From Verrucomicrobiales bacterium (lineage in GTDB: Bacteria > Verrucomicrobiota > Verrucomicrobiia > Verrucomicrobiales > DEV007), in NCBI GenBank assembly GCA_002698785.1, contig PAAG01000014.1, positions 186,001 through 250,000 of the forward strand: a stretch of 64,000 bases of DNA, in the 5' to 3' direction. The notes under the pieces were generated by a model. That model saw nothing but the letters and a program-made list of their open reading frames with translations. It was not told the DNA's origin and did no database searches. The translations under genes and the position numbers were made by a program. Positions 36,780-43,339 of this stretch are shown piece after piece. How positions within the stretch are numbered: the first letter of the stretch is position 1; every line of letters begins with the position of its first letter.

Positions 36780-37169
36780 ATGTTTTCACGGAAACCAAAG
36801 AATCGTAAGCGCCGAGTTCGCAGAAAGCCATCTCAGACCAAGAGTTGGGAAACAGAGTCGCCAGCCCCCGCTCGCAAACGGAAGCCTGCGACAGAGAAAG
36901 AACAGATGCACATGCTGCACGCCCAAATCGGGGTCTTGGAATCTTTCCTTGAGAAAAAGCACGCCTCGGAACTGCGTCAAATGCAGATGAAGGCAGAGAA
37001 CATTCTCCCTCCTCCTGACCGGTCAACACTCCGGCGCCAGCGCGATGCGATGTCGATGGCTGAGCGACGCCGTTATCATGCAGAACGAAGTAGAAACGGA
37101 ATTCACTTCTTCTTCCTATTTTGCCTCGCGTGCGCCATCGGCTGGTGGATACTCTTCTGCACGGTCTAA
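36780..37169 (+). CDS. Small basic tail-anchored protein
   Basis: A 129-aa protein with a very basic N-terminus (FSRKPKNRKRRVRRKPSQ), a short helical segment (QIGVLESFLEKKHASELRQMQMKAEN) and a single C-terminal membrane helix (FFFLFCLACAIGWWILF). It is like a shorter version of the upstream coiled-coil protein. Its last 54 bases overlap the end of the convergent Lgt-like gene on the other strand. The basic tail could bind phospholipid head groups or nucleic acid; function unknown. Confidence 0.6.
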   Translation: MFSRKPKNRKRRVRRKPSQTKSWETESPAPARKRKPATEKEQMHMLHAQIGVLESFLEKKHASELRQMQMKAENILPPPDRSTLRRQRDAMSMAERRRYHAERSRNGIHFFFLFCLACAIGWWILFCTV

Positions 37170-37895
37170 GTTCTGACCTCCAGACTTCGCCCTTTGCCAG
37201 GCACGTATTGCGCCCAACGCGACAAGTCCAAGTGCGGCAATCTGATACCCGCTGATCGAACCAATCAGGTCAGGTGTATCTCGGAAAAACTCGTGAAAGA
37301 AGCGGAAAAGTCCGTAGCAAATCAGGTAGACATGGAAGAGCTGCCCTTTTCCCGCGCCACGAGTTACAATCGGTAGCATTGCGGCTACAAACAGGAGGTT
37401 AGAGATCATCTCTACAACAGAGGCAGGCCATCTTGGATCACCGAGTGAGTCCGCCATCGTCCACCATTGCTCTGACGAGCAGACATTGCCTAAACAACAA
37501 CCGTACCGCAGGCATCCGATCCTCCCCATGGCAATCCCCAACGGTACCCCTACAGCGAACCAGTCTCCTGTGGGCTTCTTATAGCCAATGATCTTCTTCG
37601 CGATCTCAACTCCCGCGTATCCTCCGAGCAGAGCGCCTACAATAGTTTTCCCCGCGAGCAGCTGCAGTAGCGCATTCCATCCGGAGTTGTCCCTGACATT
37701 CATCCACCCTTCGGCAGCGATGAAGAGCAGCTTGGCTCCCAGGAACGCCCCACACAAAGCTCCGATGTAGATACCAAACGTCTCCGGCGTTTTCCTCCAA
37801 CGCCGCAGCCAGAACCACGCTCCCACGACAAGTCCGAAAATCGTGATCCAGCCATAGACACTGAAACCGCCAGGATCGATTTCAAAGCGATTCAT
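37116..37895 (-). CDS. Lgt-like (prolipoprotein diacylglyceryl transferase family) membrane protein
   Basis: A 259-aa polytopic protein of the Lgt family. True Lgt moves diacylglycerol from phosphatidylglycerol to the lipobox cysteine. The family signature GRxGNFxNGE is here GRIGCLRYGCCLG (residues 124-136), with Cys in place of the conserved Asn, and the conserved catalytic His region (FHGGL) is IVGALLGGYAG (85-95), with Val in place of His. The housekeeping Lgt role is therefore unlikely. It overlaps the radical SAM gene by four bases (ATGA), so both should act in one process, probably on lipids. Confidence 0.8.
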   Translation of the reverse strand: MNRFEIDPGGFSVYGWITIFGLVVGAWFWLRRWRKTPETFGIYIGALCGAFLGAKLLFIAAEGWMNVRDNSGWNALLQLLAGKTIVGALLGGYAGVEIAKKIIGYKKPTGDWFAVGVPLGIAMGRIGCLRYGCCLGNVCSSEQWWTMADSLGDPRWPASVVEMISNLLFVAAMLPIVTRGAGKGQLFHVYLICYGLFRFFHEFFRDTPDLIGSISGYQIAALGLVALGAIRAWQRAKSGGQNLDRAEEYPPADGAREAK

Positions 37896-39271
37896 TTCGG
37901 AGTCCGGTATGCCTTCGCTCCTCCATTGAGATAATAGCGGCAGAAGGAATCGAGTTTACCATCGGGACGGATCACATGGGTGCAGCATCGATCAATCCTG
38001 TCCTGATCCCAGTCTCGTTCGTCCATGAACGGTTTGATGAAAAGCCGGAAAGTATTTCTTTCATCCATCTCCAACTCGTGCAGCAACTCTCCCAGAGGCT
38101 CCGATTCGCAGCCGCACTTGATCAGATCTTCAAGCCGGTAACGGACACGATCGCTAAGGAATCCCTGCAATGTCGCAAAATCGACGAACTCGCTGATGGA
38201 GCGAATCTCACCGTCCATCTTCAAGAGGTAACCGATCGTGGCACAGTTCGGATCTCCGCAGGGCAGCGGAGTAAAATCTTCAAAACCCACCGTTCCTCCC
38301 GACTGATCCACGAGTCCGAGAATAATATCGGCGACGTTCAGTTTATGGTTCTGACTGGATACCGAGTGAACACGTCCACTGCCAAACATCGGCTGGAACG
38401 CCACTCCCCGCACATGATCGAATTGCAGACCGTATTTTACCGTGTTCCAGAGCTCATTCACATTCTCTGGAATCACAGTCATCGCGAGAGTCAGCGGTAT
38501 CCCGAGTTCCCCTGCTCGCTCGATTGCCTTTCTCTTCATCAATCGAAGGTCGGAGCCGCGCAAAGACAGGTCGGCAGCTTCGTTCGTGCCATCGAACTGA
38601 AGGTAAAACTGGAAATGTCCGTACTCCATTACCCGGGCCAGTTGCTCCCCGAAATTCTTATCACCAGCCAGGCGAACACCATTCGAATTCACCAGCAGAT
38701 AATCGATGCCCTCGTTCTGCTGGCACCACTGCACCAATTCGAAAAAATGAGGATGCAACGTAGGTTCGCCTCCTGACAATTGCAGAATTTCGATCGGCCC
38801 TTTTCTGTCGATCACATCTTGAATCCGAATTTTCAGCTCTTCAAGAGGTGTCGCATCGACATCGTCTCCAGCACCTTTTGGTGAATCGGCAAAGCATGTT
38901 GGGCAAGCCAGGTTGCAGGAATCCACAATCTCGATCAAAGCCAAGCAGGTCGACATCACCTCGATAGGATCCGTCTTCGGAATGGGCCGAATTGCATTCT
39001 GCCCGAGAAACCCGACGTAGTTTCCCGATACCGGAGTAGCGCAGCCGCACGAAGAATCACAGCAGTTACCGCTCTTCTCCTCTCGTGCCCCGGTGGACAG
39101 CCAGTAAAAACGAGCATCAGTGCTTATTCGGGTATCTGCTTCACCACACTGCGGGCACTCCTTCCGCATCCAAACCTCGTCATCCCTTGAATATACTTTC
39201 GCCGGGACCGAACCTCGACATACGGGACAAATACTCTTCGTCTCTTTGAGACAGTTCTCCTTGGCAATCAT
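37892..39271 (-). CDS. Radical SAM protein, COG1964 type (MJ0619/Tes-like)
   Basis: A 459-aa cytoplasmic radical SAM enzyme. The cluster motif is C119, C123, C126 in CNLACPTC, with GGEPT in LQLSGGEPTLHPHF. An N-terminal zinc-like module (CPVC and CPQCG) and the ending RCCTHVIRPDG...FC match the COG1964 group, as does FTPLPCGDPNC. That group includes methanogen MJ0619 and the archaeal tetraether synthase Tes, which joins lipid chains. The bacterial member's substrate is unknown. It is coupled to the Lgt-like gene downstream and 9 bp from a small membrane protein upstream, so a lipid substrate is a reasonable inference. Confidence 0.8.
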   Translation of the reverse strand: MIAKENCLKETKSICPVCRGSVPAKVYSRDDEVWMRKECPQCGEADTRISTDARFYWLSTGAREEKSGNCCDSSCGCATPVSGNYVGFLGQNAIRPIPKTDPIEVMSTCLALIEIVDSCNLACPTCFADSPKGAGDDVDATPLEELKIRIQDVIDRKGPIEILQLSGGEPTLHPHFFELVQWCQQNEGIDYLLVNSNGVRLAGDKNFGEQLARVMEYGHFQFYLQFDGTNEAADLSLRGSDLRLMKRKAIERAGELGIPLTLAMTVIPENVNELWNTVKYGLQFDHVRGVAFQPMFGSGRVHSVSSQNHKLNVADIILGLVDQSGGTVGFEDFTPLPCGDPNCATIGYLLKMDGEIRSISEFVDFATLQGFLSDRVRYRLEDLIKCGCESEPLGELLHELEMDERNTFRLFIKPFMDERDWDQDRIDRCCTHVIRPDGKLDSFCRYYLNGGAKAYRTPK

Positions 39272-39280
39272 TTAAATCGC

Positions 39281-39574
39281 TTACGATGTTGCCAGAGCCA
39301 TCCCACAGCAGCCAGCGAGCCCGATTCCGAGATAGGCTACCCCGACACAGAGAAATGTGATGACAGCCAACACCCACGCTGCCCACTTGGGATCCTTCAT
39401 CGCCTTATAAACTTTCTGTCCCACACAGATACCGGAGATTATCGCGCCTGCCCCGATCAGGATGATAGCAATGCTGACACAGATATCTTGACTCATTCCC
39501 ACCGCCTCTCCCACGAAAAGCAGCAGAATCGCGAGAATCGCCGGAGCCAGACACAGGACAAATCGCAGAAGCAT
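39281..39574 (-). CDS. Small three-helix membrane protein
   Basis: A 97-aa membrane protein from the ATG of MLLRFVLCLAPAILAILL. It has three hydrophobic helices, with CVGQKVYKAMKDPKW in the loop between the second and third, and a Cys pair in GLAGCCGMAL near the end. A TTG at 39598 would add eight residues. It lies between the polyprenyl synthase fusion and the radical SAM gene, 9 bp from the latter, and is probably part of the same operon. No family recognised. Confidence 0.65.
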   Translation of the reverse strand: MLLRFVLCLAPAILAILLLFVGEAVGMSQDICVSIAIILIGAGAIISGICVGQKVYKAMKDPKWAAWVLAVITFLCVGVAYLGIGLAGCCGMALATS

Positions 39575-39647
39575 GGGTGCAGTTTGCCTGCATCCCAAAC
39601 AGAAAGCAATTCCAGAGAATCAGCGAGAGAGAAAAGAGAAAGCCTCT

Positions 39648-41483
39648 CTAAGAGACCTCAGCTTTCTCTACGTCGTCTTCGCGAACGCCGTTCTTCACTT
39701 CGAACTCGCGGCACCAGCCCTTGATTTCGAGATCGTTGAAAATCTTGCCCATCACGCGTCGAAGCAATCCTTTCAGATTCGGATTCTCCAATTCAGCAAG
39801 ACTTCTTACCGCTGCCTCCTTGTATGTCTCTAGAAGAAGCATGCATTTCTCATCCGCCTCGACTTCGTGAGCGAGTTTCCGGATTTTGTGAATGGCAATA
39901 TCTTCGAGATCTTCGTGGTTCCACAGAGATTCAAGAAGAGCTTTATCATCCCCTCTGGCACGCTCCCGAGCCACAGCAAGGAGGACGGAAGGACGCATCT
40001 GTTCCAGCTCGTTATCACCAGCGTCTTCGCCAAGATCATCCATGTCATCGCGAATCTGGTAAGCGATACCAAGATTCTCTGAATATGCTGCAAGCACATC
40101 ACCAACCTCGTCAAGCTTGCCGGCATAGCTGGCGCCAAGCTTCAAAGCTACTTCGAAAGCCGGAGCCGTTTTCTGACGGAAAATTTCGAGAACCTGCTTT
40201 GATTTCAGAGGAGAAGGATTCTTTGCCCAGATCAGTTCAGCACCCTGACCACGACACAATTCCCGCTGGCCACGAGAGGCTACGAGAAGCATCTCCGCCT
40301 TCTGGGCGTCGCTGGCTTCACATTCTCCAATGAGGCGATAGCCCTCACCAATCAGTAAATCGCCCGCATTCAACGCTACCGGGATTCCATGCTCCGCATG
40401 AAGGGTCGGCTGATCGTAACGACCATGATCCTCGTCCTCGATATCATCGTGGATGAGTGACGCCTTGTGAAAGAGTTCCGTCGCGAGAGCGATTTTCTTG
40501 ATATCTTCAGGGATCGGCTCACCTCTGTCCTCTCGCAGTGCCTCAAAAGCCGCCACGGTCAGAAACGGACGCCATCGCTTTCCGTCTCTCGCCAACCACT
40601 CACGAGCAATCTCTTCCTGGGCACCTTCGGCAGGCCCCATGACAGATTCAATCGCCTCTGGTGTGAACCATTCCTTCACCTCGCGATGGAGTGAATTGAG
40701 ATCCAGGCGACGGGTCTGGTCATCACTGGTGAGGTGAATGTATTCCCACACCCAGTCGATATCGACTGTGGTGTTGATGCAGTCGTCCTGAAGCAAAGGC
40801 ACGGCAATAGAAGGAATCGCAGCCGCTTCCACATATGGGAAAGTTCTTTCCAACACCGGAAGGCAGGAAATGCCGACGATCGCTTCGATCTGGCCGGTCT
40901 GGATTAGCGACATCACGATAGCTGAGCCTTCGGCCACCAGCACAGCGTACCCGAGTCGTTCTGCCTCGTTCTGGAAATCCTGAATTGAGCAGAGCCCACA
41001 CTGCTTACAAAGCAGTCCAAATTCATCAAAAGGTGCCGGGCACTTGTCCTCCACCCGAAGGCACTTCGGCATCAGCAGCAAACGACGCTCGTAGGGAATC
41101 TCCGCCAATGTTTCCCGCCACATCTCGTTGTTGAGGCAGACAGCGGTGTAATGAAGATACGTGTCGTCCCCTTCGTAATTCAGGGTAGCGAGAATCTTAC
41201 GAGCGTGAACATCAAGCTCCTCGATAGGCATAGGAGGGACCGGATTCTCGGTCTCGACGTAGTTTCGGATCGCCTGAAGGAAATGATCCCGCTCGATCTT
41301 TGTCTGCGGAATGTTCTTCTTGGGTGGACGAAACCGGGTCGTCGTGACCGGAACGGGTTTCGGAATCTTGATGGTCTGAATGGAATCGACTGGGGATGAC
41401 ATAGAGGAGATGACCGATTCTGAATTGGCGGTGTTACTGGTAACAGGAATCGCCTGCGGATACAACACGGATTCTGAGAACAA
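39648..41483 (-). CDS. DUF116-polyprenyl diphosphate synthase fusion
   Basis: A 611-aa two-domain protein. Residues about 100-245 are DUF116, with cysteines C141, C148, C159, C162 and C165 (KCLRVEDKCPAPF, LCKQCGLCSI) that probably hold an iron-sulfur cluster. Residues about 285-570 are a trans-isoprenyl diphosphate synthase: GKRWRP (301-306), first aspartate motif DDIED (346-350) and second DDMDD (479-483). Small residues (AS at 341-342) before the first motif suggest a long product. The N-terminal 60 residues are unstructured; M28 (41402) is an alternative start. First gene of the proposed lipid cluster. Confidence 0.88.
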   Translation of the reverse strand: MFSESVLYPQAIPVTSNTANSESVISSMSSPVDSIQTIKIPKPVPVTTTRFRPPKKNIPQTKIERDHFLQAIRNYVETENPVPPMPIEELDVHARKILATLNYEGDDTYLHYTAVCLNNEMWRETLAEIPYERRLLLMPKCLRVEDKCPAPFDEFGLLCKQCGLCSIQDFQNEAERLGYAVLVAEGSAIVMSLIQTGQIEAIVGISCLPVLERTFPYVEAAAIPSIAVPLLQDDCINTTVDIDWVWEYIHLTSDDQTRRLDLNSLHREVKEWFTPEAIESVMGPAEGAQEEIAREWLARDGKRWRPFLTVAAFEALREDRGEPIPEDIKKIALATELFHKASLIHDDIEDEDHGRYDQPTLHAEHGIPVALNAGDLLIGEGYRLIGECEASDAQKAEMLLVASRGQRELCRGQGAELIWAKNPSPLKSKQVLEIFRQKTAPAFEVALKLGASYAGKLDEVGDVLAAYSENLGIAYQIRDDMDDLGEDAGDNELEQMRPSVLLAVARERARGDDKALLESLWNHEDLEDIAIHKIRKLAHEVEADEKCMLLLETYKEAAVRSLAELENPNLKGLLRRVMGKIFNDLEIKGWCREFEVKNGVREDDVEKAEVS

Positions 41484-42112: not shown

Positions 42113-43339
42113 TCAGCGATTCTTCCCCTTCCGTTTGGACTGCTTTTTCTTACCGCCTTTTTTGTTCTTCTGGCCTTTCTTGCCGCGCGCCTTCGATTTG
42201 CCACGCGCCTTCTTTTTCTTCACTTTGACTTTCGTGAAAGACTTCGCGAAATCCTTTGCATCTTCGACCGTCAATGACCGAGCCGAAATACCCGCTACCA
42301 TTGCGCCATTCTTGCGTAGCGGAGTCACCTCCATTACGAAGCCAGCTTCTTCACCGTGCTCCAGTGATTCCGTCTCATACCTTCCTGCTACTATCGAAGC
42401 GGTAACATTCTCACGGGAACTCTTAGTGAAATAGCCTACGGAGAAAGTCCGTCGTCCCCGTGTCCCGCGAAGTCGAAAGGCATCGGTGTCTCCGTCGTTT
42501 TGAACAGCAAAAGGATAAGCGACTGTCTGAACAGCCCTGAGATGGTTGCCAACTGTCTGTTTGCTACCAACGGCGTTGAAGTAATCATCGCCCACAGGTT
42601 CCCCACCATCATTCCCGATCACCAGATCACCGAGATGAAGATTAGTACCCATCTCAAACTCCCCTTCCCCCTCGTCGACAAGAGAGTCCTCCTCAAATGT
42701 GGTTGATGTGAAGCTCACTGGAAGCCCTTCTGAATCGAAAAGAAGGATCAGCTCTGTCGAAGTATCTCCGTCTTCGAACAGCATCGTTACCTTCGAGGAA
42801 AACTCGTCGACCATTTCGTAGAGGTAAGTGAAATACTCAGCCTCTCCTGGAACGAAGAGCCGTCCCTCGGTATCCGTAAGGAACTCATATCGATTTGGAC
42901 CAGCTTTGATGAATGAGCCTGTCAGTGAAGCTGGAGCCGAAGATTCCACCGCAGGGGGAGGCGGCGGTGAAACATCCAGTTCTCCAATTTCAAACGAACC
43001 TTGCCGAAAAATAGGAGGAATAGGAGGACCGGATGTATCTCGATCAAACTCATCATATCCGGCCGGCGAACCGAGATCATCGAAATACAGCGTGATATCT
43101 CGTGAGCGCAAACCTGACGCATAGGTCACCACAACTGATGCCGAAGCGGCGTCGAGAATCGAGTAGCTGTAGGAGAAATCAGCACCAGCATCTGTCCCCA
43201 TAGAAGGGTCTACGAACTCGAGACGGTTTCCATCAAGAGTTACAAACTTCCCCGCAAGGTCTGCAGGCGGAGCGCTATAGAGAAAGGTCGGGAAGGCTAT
43301 AGCGGCAAGCACAAGAATGAGGAAGCGGAGGGTGGTCAT
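42113..43339 (-). CDS. Exported repeat protein with basic tail
   Basis: A 408-aa protein with a signal peptide (1-22). Residues about 27-110 and 130-215 are two related beta-rich repeats: LAGKFVTLDGNRLEFVD with YFDDLGSPAGY, then LTGSFIKAGPNRYEFLT with LFDSEGLPVSF. A third region (about 245-360) is also beta-rich. The last 45 residues are almost all Lys, Gly and Arg (KKKKARGKSKARGKKGQKN), like the tail of the sulfatase at 19-20.6 kb. Function unknown; a cell-surface or polyanion-binding role is possible. Confidence 0.65.
   Translation of the reverse strand: MTTLRFLILVLAAIAFPTFLYSAPPADLAGKFVTLDGNRLEFVDPSMGTDAGADFSYSYSILDAASASVVVTYASGLRSRDITLYFDDLGSPAGYDEFDRDTSGPPIPPIFRQGSFEIGELDVSPPPPPAVESSAPASLTGSFIKAGPNRYEFLTDTEGRLFVPGEAEYFTYLYEMVDEFSSKVTMLFEDGDTSTELILLFDSEGLPVSFTSTTFEEDSLVDEGEGEFEMGTNLHLGDLVIGNDGGEPVGDDYFNAVGSKQTVGNHLRAVQTVAYPFAVQNDGDTDAFRLRGTRGRRTFSVGYFTKSSRENVTASIVAGRYETESLEHGEEAGFVMEVTPLRKNGAMVAGISARSLTVEDAKDFAKSFTKVKVKKKKARGKSKARGKKGQKNKKGGKKKQSKRKGKNR

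Follow-up and report, generated by a model that had tools for sequence, protein, structure and literature searches.

What does a bacterium gain from encoding, side by side, a radical S-adenosylmethionine (SAM) enzyme resembling an archaeal lipid synthase, a divergent copy of the diacylglycerol transferase Lgt and a small membrane protein? The question is raised by a 64,000-nucleotide stretch of DNA (hereafter the window; positions 186,001 to 250,000 of contig PAAG01000014.1, assembly GCA_002698785.1) from a Verrucomicrobiales bacterium with a genome of 7 Mb. A sequence-only reading of the window had described four closely spaced minus-strand genes, for a fusion of DUF116 with a polyprenyl diphosphate synthase, a small membrane protein, a radical SAM protein of the Tes kind and an altered Lgt paralogue (here LgtX), and had proposed that they build or modify an unusual isoprenoid or membrane-spanning lipid. 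The gene group itself is borne out by the window's open reading frame (ORF) list, in which the four ORFs follow one another with gaps of 49 bp and 9 bp and then a 4-bp overlap, and all Pfam matches of the synthase, the radical SAM protein and LgtX lie above their cut-offs. We show below that three of the four genes form a conserved unit. Its parts come from known families, of which they are divergent members, and the system may be an undescribed route to make or attach unusual membrane lipids.

Genes that travel with the radical SAM protein

The radical SAM, LgtX and synthase proteins each served as query against one set of 286 genomes of the class. Orthologues of the radical SAM protein at ≥50% identity (type A) were found in 21 of the 286 genomes, spread over 13 family labels. 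LgtX, at more than 130 bits, was present in 20 of these 21 genomes and in none of the 265 others (Fisher p 7.5e-30, uncorrected for kinship; the threshold was chosen after seeing a gap between 136 and 84 bits, and that for the synthase likewise). The sole radical SAM genome lacking LgtX, G154, carries near its radical SAM gene (locus L053) a divergent Lgt that best matches the LgtX proteins of Bacteroidota and type B, and thus looks from its sequence like a partner swap. G210 and G233 have both genes too, although not as neighbours: the two lie on separate contigs or at a distance of hundreds of kilobases. All 21 genomes additionally carry a higher-scoring Lgt (194-248 bits, versus 57-102 for LgtX); the window's genome likewise holds a second, higher-scoring copy. 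At locus L037 (G022) the LgtX gene follows the radical SAM gene and reads through in frame into an apparent lipoprotein gene (LLAGCTT...), which may reflect a fusion or a mistake in the assembly.

The third member of the unit is conserved in position and in one residue. The small three-helix protein of the window (39281-39598, minus strand; 105 residues from a TTG start, or 97 from an ATG at 39574) has no Pfam match over cut-off and could be placed in no family, and BLAST links it only to its counterpart in locus L003. At other loci, the sequence preceding the radical SAM gene nevertheless encodes a small multi-helix protein in nearly the same position: such an ORF lies directly upstream in 18 of 23 type-A loci, and in 17 of these 18 proteins the last helix is predicted to end no more than six residues from a cysteine. 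In the window this is Cys97 of the lipobox-like motif LAGC (Leu94-Cys97; 39319-39308, minus strand), which closes the last helix and is followed by an eight-residue tail; elsewhere the helix ends in FAGC, LGGC, FTGC, FVGC or FGGC. A small protein with the cysteine is also encoded, at another place in the cassette, at L052 and at L045, which lies close to a contig end. By comparison, only 33 of 311 helix ends in 51 larger membrane proteins carry such a cysteine, a background from which Lgts were removed by their GRIGC/GRVGC motif only, so that a few Lgts with another letter may remain in it.

Two earlier controls drew on other ORFs. The first comprised 17 ORFs, 7 of them positive (p 0.015). In the second, random regions gave 2 positives among 8 ORFs (p 0.0048) and the same loci 6 among 13 (pooled p 0.0017), set against a tested group in which 35 of 44 ORFs and 27 of 28 loci were positive (L152, which repeats L043, was excluded). 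However, five of the six same-locus positives resembled extra copies of the small protein (one counted twice via L152), which is why we adopted the helix ends of larger membrane proteins as background. All of these p values overstate independence, given that the loci share descent.

The canonical lipobox, [LVI][ASTVI][GAS]C, lies at the outer end of a helix running from inside to outside. The window protein has LAGC; across type A the cysteine is kept (17 of 18), but position -3 is often Phe and position -1 is not always Gly. The loop before the last helix contains more Lys and Arg than Asp and Glu in 31 of 38 rows (three rows repeat), which would place the cysteine on the periplasmic side, the side to which, according to the structural sections of PMC4728403, the active site of Lgt opens. 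Beyond the cysteine the residues are not conserved in type A, and many of the small proteins have proline-rich or zinc-ribbon-like N-termini. Copy number also varies: L003 encodes four such proteins in tandem, and at L043 (8707-13434, plus strand) seven small membrane proteins surround one radical SAM/LgtX pair, several of them sharing a PPPNRAIxWYRFxxWxMPTC-like start. One small protein of L044 continues for 80 residues after FFGC, much like a lipoprotein.

The conserved unit, as the sequences of relatives show, consequently comprises the radical SAM gene, LgtX and, in most loci, at least one small membrane protein with a lipobox-like cysteine. The synthase fusion (39648-41483, minus strand; Pfam polyprenyl_synt 142.5 bits, DUF116 122.9 bits) is merely a close neighbour in the window, and the idea of a four-gene group therefore stands for three genes and falls for this one. 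Within the stretches fetched, the synthase adjoins only 2 of the 23 type-A loci, the window and L003. At its own threshold it occurs in 46 of the 286 genomes, distributed independently of the radical SAM gene (among the 21 genomes that carry the latter, 6 have the synthase, as do 40 of the 265 that lack it; Fisher p 0.12), and in the five other genomes holding both genes they lie on different contigs. The fusion is a recurrent protein in its own right, with 92% identity between the window and L003 as against 73% for the radical SAM protein. The two loci closest to the window by sequence are from Verrucomicrobiales metagenome-assembled genomes (MAGs), and they cluster with it in the radical SAM tree. 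Elsewhere in the window, at 42113-43339, lies a 408-residue ORF with no Pfam or NCBIfam match at E 0.1.

More distant radical SAM relatives extend the association. Within the class and phylum, Lgt-like genes lie near such relatives at L056, L057, L058, L059 and L146 to L149, while none was found near those of L060 to L063 and L145. A search of 387 genomes of the phylum returned 13 matches at E 1e-40, five in additional genomes, four of which have a nearby Lgt-like gene (G518 does not). Evidence across phyla comes from plasmid records: of 72,556 such records, 10 contain a radical SAM relative, and of the six inspected, four carry an Lgt-like gene (Persicobacter, of the Bacteroidota, M. branderi, M. 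avium and Nonomuraea). The plasmids of M. vanbaalenii and Halorarius have methyltransferase genes beside the Tes-like gene and no Lgt-like gene. Separate searches of all 72,556 records with the actinobacterial LgtX (E limit 1e-15) and small protein (1e-3) returned the same three records and no others, all three of which also hold the radical SAM gene; the type-B LgtX matches a single record, Persicobacter, beside its radical SAM gene. In this plasmid the radical SAM gene overlaps at its end with the start of an ORF for a 59-residue two-helix protein ending GTGICGSLLS. Five actinobacterial small proteins have a CTG[LI]NP tail in common. Outside type A, 12 loci are linked to an Lgt, and in 9 of them the cysteine closes the last helix. 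Viral contigs hold 57 loci with radical SAM relatives, the best segments reaching at most 39% identity.

Several of these distant loci contain further genes. At L146 (6590-7246, minus strand) a membrane protein matching the PEMT/ICMT families (methyltransferases of phospholipids or of isoprenylcysteine) is encoded between the radical SAM and Lgt-like genes, and an ORF in the same place at L148 has a similar C-terminus. L061, L062 and L063, from three genomes with one family label, contain two tandem Tes-like radical SAM genes with no Lgt nearby and a common third gene on the opposite strand (cluster c6). On the M. vanbaalenii plasmid (L126, 3299-8339) the Tes-like gene is found near genes for a methyltransferase, a second radical SAM protein, CcdA and a disulfide oxidoreductase.

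The radical SAM protein and LgtX beside their known relatives

The radical SAM protein of the window (37892-39271, minus strand; 459 residues; Pfam Radical_SAM 64.6 bits, HMPTM zinc ribbon 59.5 bits) is rich in cysteine motifs: the CxxxCxxC cluster (Cys119/123/126; 38917-38894, minus strand), a rubredoxin-like site (Cys15/18/39), a Cys-rich loop at residues 70-77, PCGDPNC, CGCE, and a CC pair and a further Cys near the C-terminus. Its predicted structure (mean predicted local distance difference test score, pLDDT, 79.9) matches Tes (7tom) over residues 4-459, with Z 39.0 and a root-mean-square deviation of 2.5 Å for 399 aligned residues. The next match is MoaA (Z 20.0), and the peptide maturases SuiB and SkfB reach a Z of about 18. 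Tes is the only close solved relative in the structure collection searched. A shared predicted fold, however, would by itself indicate no function. In NCBIfam the protein scores 235.7 bits against TrsS (NF045646; cut-off 490) and 182.7 against Tes (NF045702; cut-off 450), and by these curated scores it appears related to both families and a member of neither.

Conservation of active-site residues is similarly mixed. All 23 type-A rows keep Tes Arg210, Gln268 and Arg275, which in the portions of PMC9433317 describing the enzyme contact SAM products or close the active site. They also keep CxxxCxxC, the three rubredoxin-site cysteines and the C-terminal cysteines (Cys455/456/470 in Tes). As fourth rubredoxin ligand, 21 of the 23 rows have His and two, among them the window, have Cys. 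Of the [4Fe-4S]N ligands (Cys73, Cys77, Cys80 and a His, taken as Tes residue 83), Cys77 and the His are absent from all 23 type-A rows, with other cysteines nearby, and all four are present in the four type-B and Persicobacter proteins. Type A forms one group (100/100) in a 44-protein tree, with the actinobacterial proteins and L059 nearest to it (92/81, not firm). The one Tes sequence included groups with two rows lacking an Lgt (98/92), away from the window protein, and several long branches leave the deeper forks unsure. The claim of a Tes-kind enzyme consequently holds for the full-length fold and fails for membership, since the curated score falls short of the Tes cut-off and the tree sets the protein apart from the one Tes sequence included. 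A lipid substrate is plausible as a reasoned guess from fold and partner.

LgtX (37116-37895, minus strand; 259 residues; Pfam LGT 90.9 bits, above the gathering score of 24.9) falls short of the NCBIfam equivalog for Lgt (TIGR00544, 54.1 bits against 118.9). Its model has the predicted Lgt fold (mean pLDDT 87.5; Z 13.3 over 215 residues aligned to E. coli Lgt, next match Z 6.7). The window protein keeps Tyr14, Arg125, Glu162, Tyr194, Arg198, Glu202 and Arg205, equivalent respectively to E. coli residues 26, 143, 202, 235, 239, 243 and 246, and all seven are kept in 19 of 19 type-A sequences. We aligned 32 LgtX sequences linked to a radical SAM gene (19 of type A, 9 from elsewhere in the phylum, 3 actinobacterial and 1 of Bacteroidota), leaving aside L037, whose frame runs on, and the unlinked L111 and L112, all three of which fit by eye. 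Tyr235 and Arg239 are present in all 32, Arg143 in 31 and Tyr26 in 23 (seven have His, and two gaps). Arg143, Tyr235 and Arg239 line the phosphatidylglycerol site of the E. coli enzyme, as described in part of PMC4728403.

Two other positions are altered. Where E. coli Lgt has Met100 and His103, the window protein has Lys83 and Val86. Position 100, whose main chain touches lipid in the second site of the E. coli structure (PMC4728403, same sections), is Lys or Arg in all 32 LgtX proteins, and Leu, Phe or Met in seven canonical-type Lgts of the class. At position 103 all seven of these have His or Tyr. His196 is moreover replaced by Trp in all 19 type-A sequences. The earlier claim of an altered Lgt paralogue is thus upheld by consistent change at positions 100 and 103 throughout the alignment. 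By its sequence, LgtX probably still binds phospholipid, with the other half of the reaction changed. A further candidate mark of altered catalysis, the motif GRxGCxxxGCC, was rejected, as six of the seven canonical-type Lgts also have Cys at 146 and 151.

A proposed tailored lipid anchor and its rivals

Our preferred reading, held tentatively, is that a radical-tailored phospholipid is made and then placed on the cysteine of the small protein. Radical SAM enzymes work in the cytosol, and there the enzyme would act on a bacterial phospholipid (phosphatidylglycerol being the likeliest), abstracting a hydrogen from its tail and modifying or coupling that tail as Tes does with archaeal lipids. 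The modified lipid would then cross to the outer face of the inner membrane, where LgtX would use it as donor and pass its glyceryl-lipid portion on to the small protein, at the thiol on the outer end of the helix. The outcome would be a set of small membrane proteins bearing a radical-tailored lipid anchor. Small proteins that keep a cysteine, differ widely otherwise and in places occur in tandem would be consistent with several substrates served by a single enzyme. Transfer by LgtX, rather than mere presentation of the lipid, is the weakest step of this proposal. In a bolder form, which we consider distinctly unlikely, the Tes-like enzyme would couple the tails of two bacterial phospholipids and LgtX would join one end of the membrane-spanning or macrocyclic product to the periplasmic cysteine, so pinning the small protein to a lipid across the membrane; if true, radical lipid chemistry would feed protein lipidation in ordinary bacteria, with dedicated substrates.

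A number of observations weigh against the tailored anchor. Among the 32 LgtX sequences, 30 have Leu, Val, Ile, Met or Ala at position 103 and two have Thr; none has an aromatic residue there. In E. coli His103 is essential, and the complementation data in PMC4728403, in the part that covers them, list failure for the Ala, Asn, Gln, Arg and Tyr variants alike; sections of PMC13251419 report partial growth with His103Gln and natural Lgts with Tyr, Trp or Phe at this position. Since position 103 is never aromatic in LgtX, thiol transfer may have been lost. Tes Met439 and Tyr459, fully conserved across 1000 archaeal homologues according to passages of PMC9433317, are Lys and Val in all 23 type-A rows, although the same passages report that a Met439Ala variant is still active, and loss of the Met alone therefore does not exclude Tes-like chemistry. 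TrsS outscores Tes for the window protein and for all nine relatives scanned (TrsS scores of 188.8-352.5 bits for the latter). Eight Tes-like proteins of the tree have no Lgt in the stretch covered, so the radical chemistry does not need one. Nor is the cysteine universal: the ORF directly upstream at L041 is without it (another small ORF about 500 bp upstream ends VVFASC), as are some tandem copies at L043 near their C-terminus; at L059 and L147 it lies, by eye, at the end of the first helix instead; and no linked small protein was found at the type-A loci L049, L050 and L051 or at L149.

The main rival makes LgtX a lipid-binding subunit that presents phosphatidylglycerol to the radical SAM enzyme, with the small protein as third subunit; the product would be a modified phospholipid left free, such as a tail-coupled or macrocyclic one. 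The retention of the donor-site residues with loss of the ring at 103 speaks for such a role; the Tes fold with most of its cluster cysteines kept is in line with it, as is the PEMT/ICMT protein between the two genes at L146, these families including lipid methyltransferases. However, presentation leaves unexplained why highly varied small proteins keep a lipobox-like cysteine and why they occur in tandem at L003 and L043, and it must reconcile a cytosolic radical SAM enzyme with an Lgt site facing the periplasm. We regard it as possible but doubtful.

A role without radical lipid chemistry, in which the enzyme, in the manner of the TrsS group, has for example a small molecule or redox cofactor as its substrate and LgtX does no more than lipidate accessory proteins, would account for the ranking of TrsS above Tes and for the methyltransferase genes beside the relatives in Halorarius and M. 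vanbaalenii. It is at odds with the paired Lgt paralogue that keeps a phosphatidylglycerol site and with Tes as the only close solved relative, and we consider it unlikely.

Many radical SAM enzymes mature peptides, and the small proteins might themselves be the direct substrates of a membrane-embedded relative of such systems, LgtX then lipidating or anchoring the product. Small, divergent and sometimes tandem proteins whose genes overlap the radical SAM gene, or lie a short gap away from it, would suit this arrangement. Yet the whole radical SAM protein matches the lipid-handling Tes far above SuiB and SkfB, type A shows no conservation in the residues following the cysteine, and the cysteine is predicted to face away from the cytosol, all of which makes peptide maturation improbable.

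The isoprenoid lipid of the sequence-only reading, with the synthase supplying the chain, is highly improbable and falls with the exclusion of that gene from the unit: the 49-bp gap in the window, the same gene order in one related MAG (L003) and a nominal association with the radical SAM gene under a stricter synthase list (37 genomes, p 0.039) are outweighed by the rarity of adjacency, the separate contigs elsewhere and the 15 of 21 radical SAM genomes without the synthase.

If the tailored anchor is real, protein lipidation in Verrucomicrobiota, Bacteroidota and Actinomycetota draws on lipids whose unreactive tails have been altered by radical SAM chemistry, and this system becomes a candidate place to look for unusual bacterial lipids. 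The proposal offers a testable target, namely one cysteine in a small membrane protein.

Comparison with known systems

In searches of the open-licence literature on TrsS, on Tes/MJ0619 homologues, on Lgt paralogues and on Lgt together with radical SAM enzymes, we found no description of an association between this radical SAM protein and LgtX. TrsS, a radical SAM (seleno)protein and the best curated match, albeit below cut-off, appears in the available portion of PMC13188914 as a table row with no function attached. With Tes (also GDGT-MAS; MJ0619) the window protein shares the fold, the radical SAM, three rubredoxin-site and three C-terminal cysteines, and Arg210, Gln268 and Arg275; unlike the archaeal enzyme it is bacterial, coupled to LgtX, and has Lys and Val at 439 and 459. 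Homologues of Tes occur in many bacteria, where, as passages of PMC11868695 put it, their production of membrane-spanning lipids is unconfirmed. Mss, the membrane-spanning lipid synthase described with Ger in the same passages, couples bacterial fatty acyl chains; we liken it to the present system by description only, and PMC11868695 makes no mention of Lgt (term count 0).

Canonical Lgt has the fold and donor-site residues of LgtX, and LgtX departs from it at positions 100 and 103 and, in type A, at 196. Duplicate lgt genes are common, some 1,300 genomes having two copies according to sections of PMC13251419. These sections also describe Y26H and N146C in MSMEG_5408, the second Lgt of M. smegmatis; both changes are present in all three actinobacterial LgtX proteins, and MSMEG_5408 may belong with LgtX. 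Through the unit described here, part of the bacterial Tes homologues and part of the duplicate lgt copies gain a shared setting.

If our best reading holds, the system would be a variant form of protein lipidation, and as such it invites comparison with MYXO-CTERM proteins and myxosortase. In these proteins, as the relevant parts of PMC11980579 describe them, the helix follows the cysteine, giving the opposite orientation, a protease cleaves the protein, and no radical SAM enzyme is mentioned in those parts; as here, however, an invariant cysteine beside a transmembrane helix is predicted to be lipidated by an Lgt-like enzyme.

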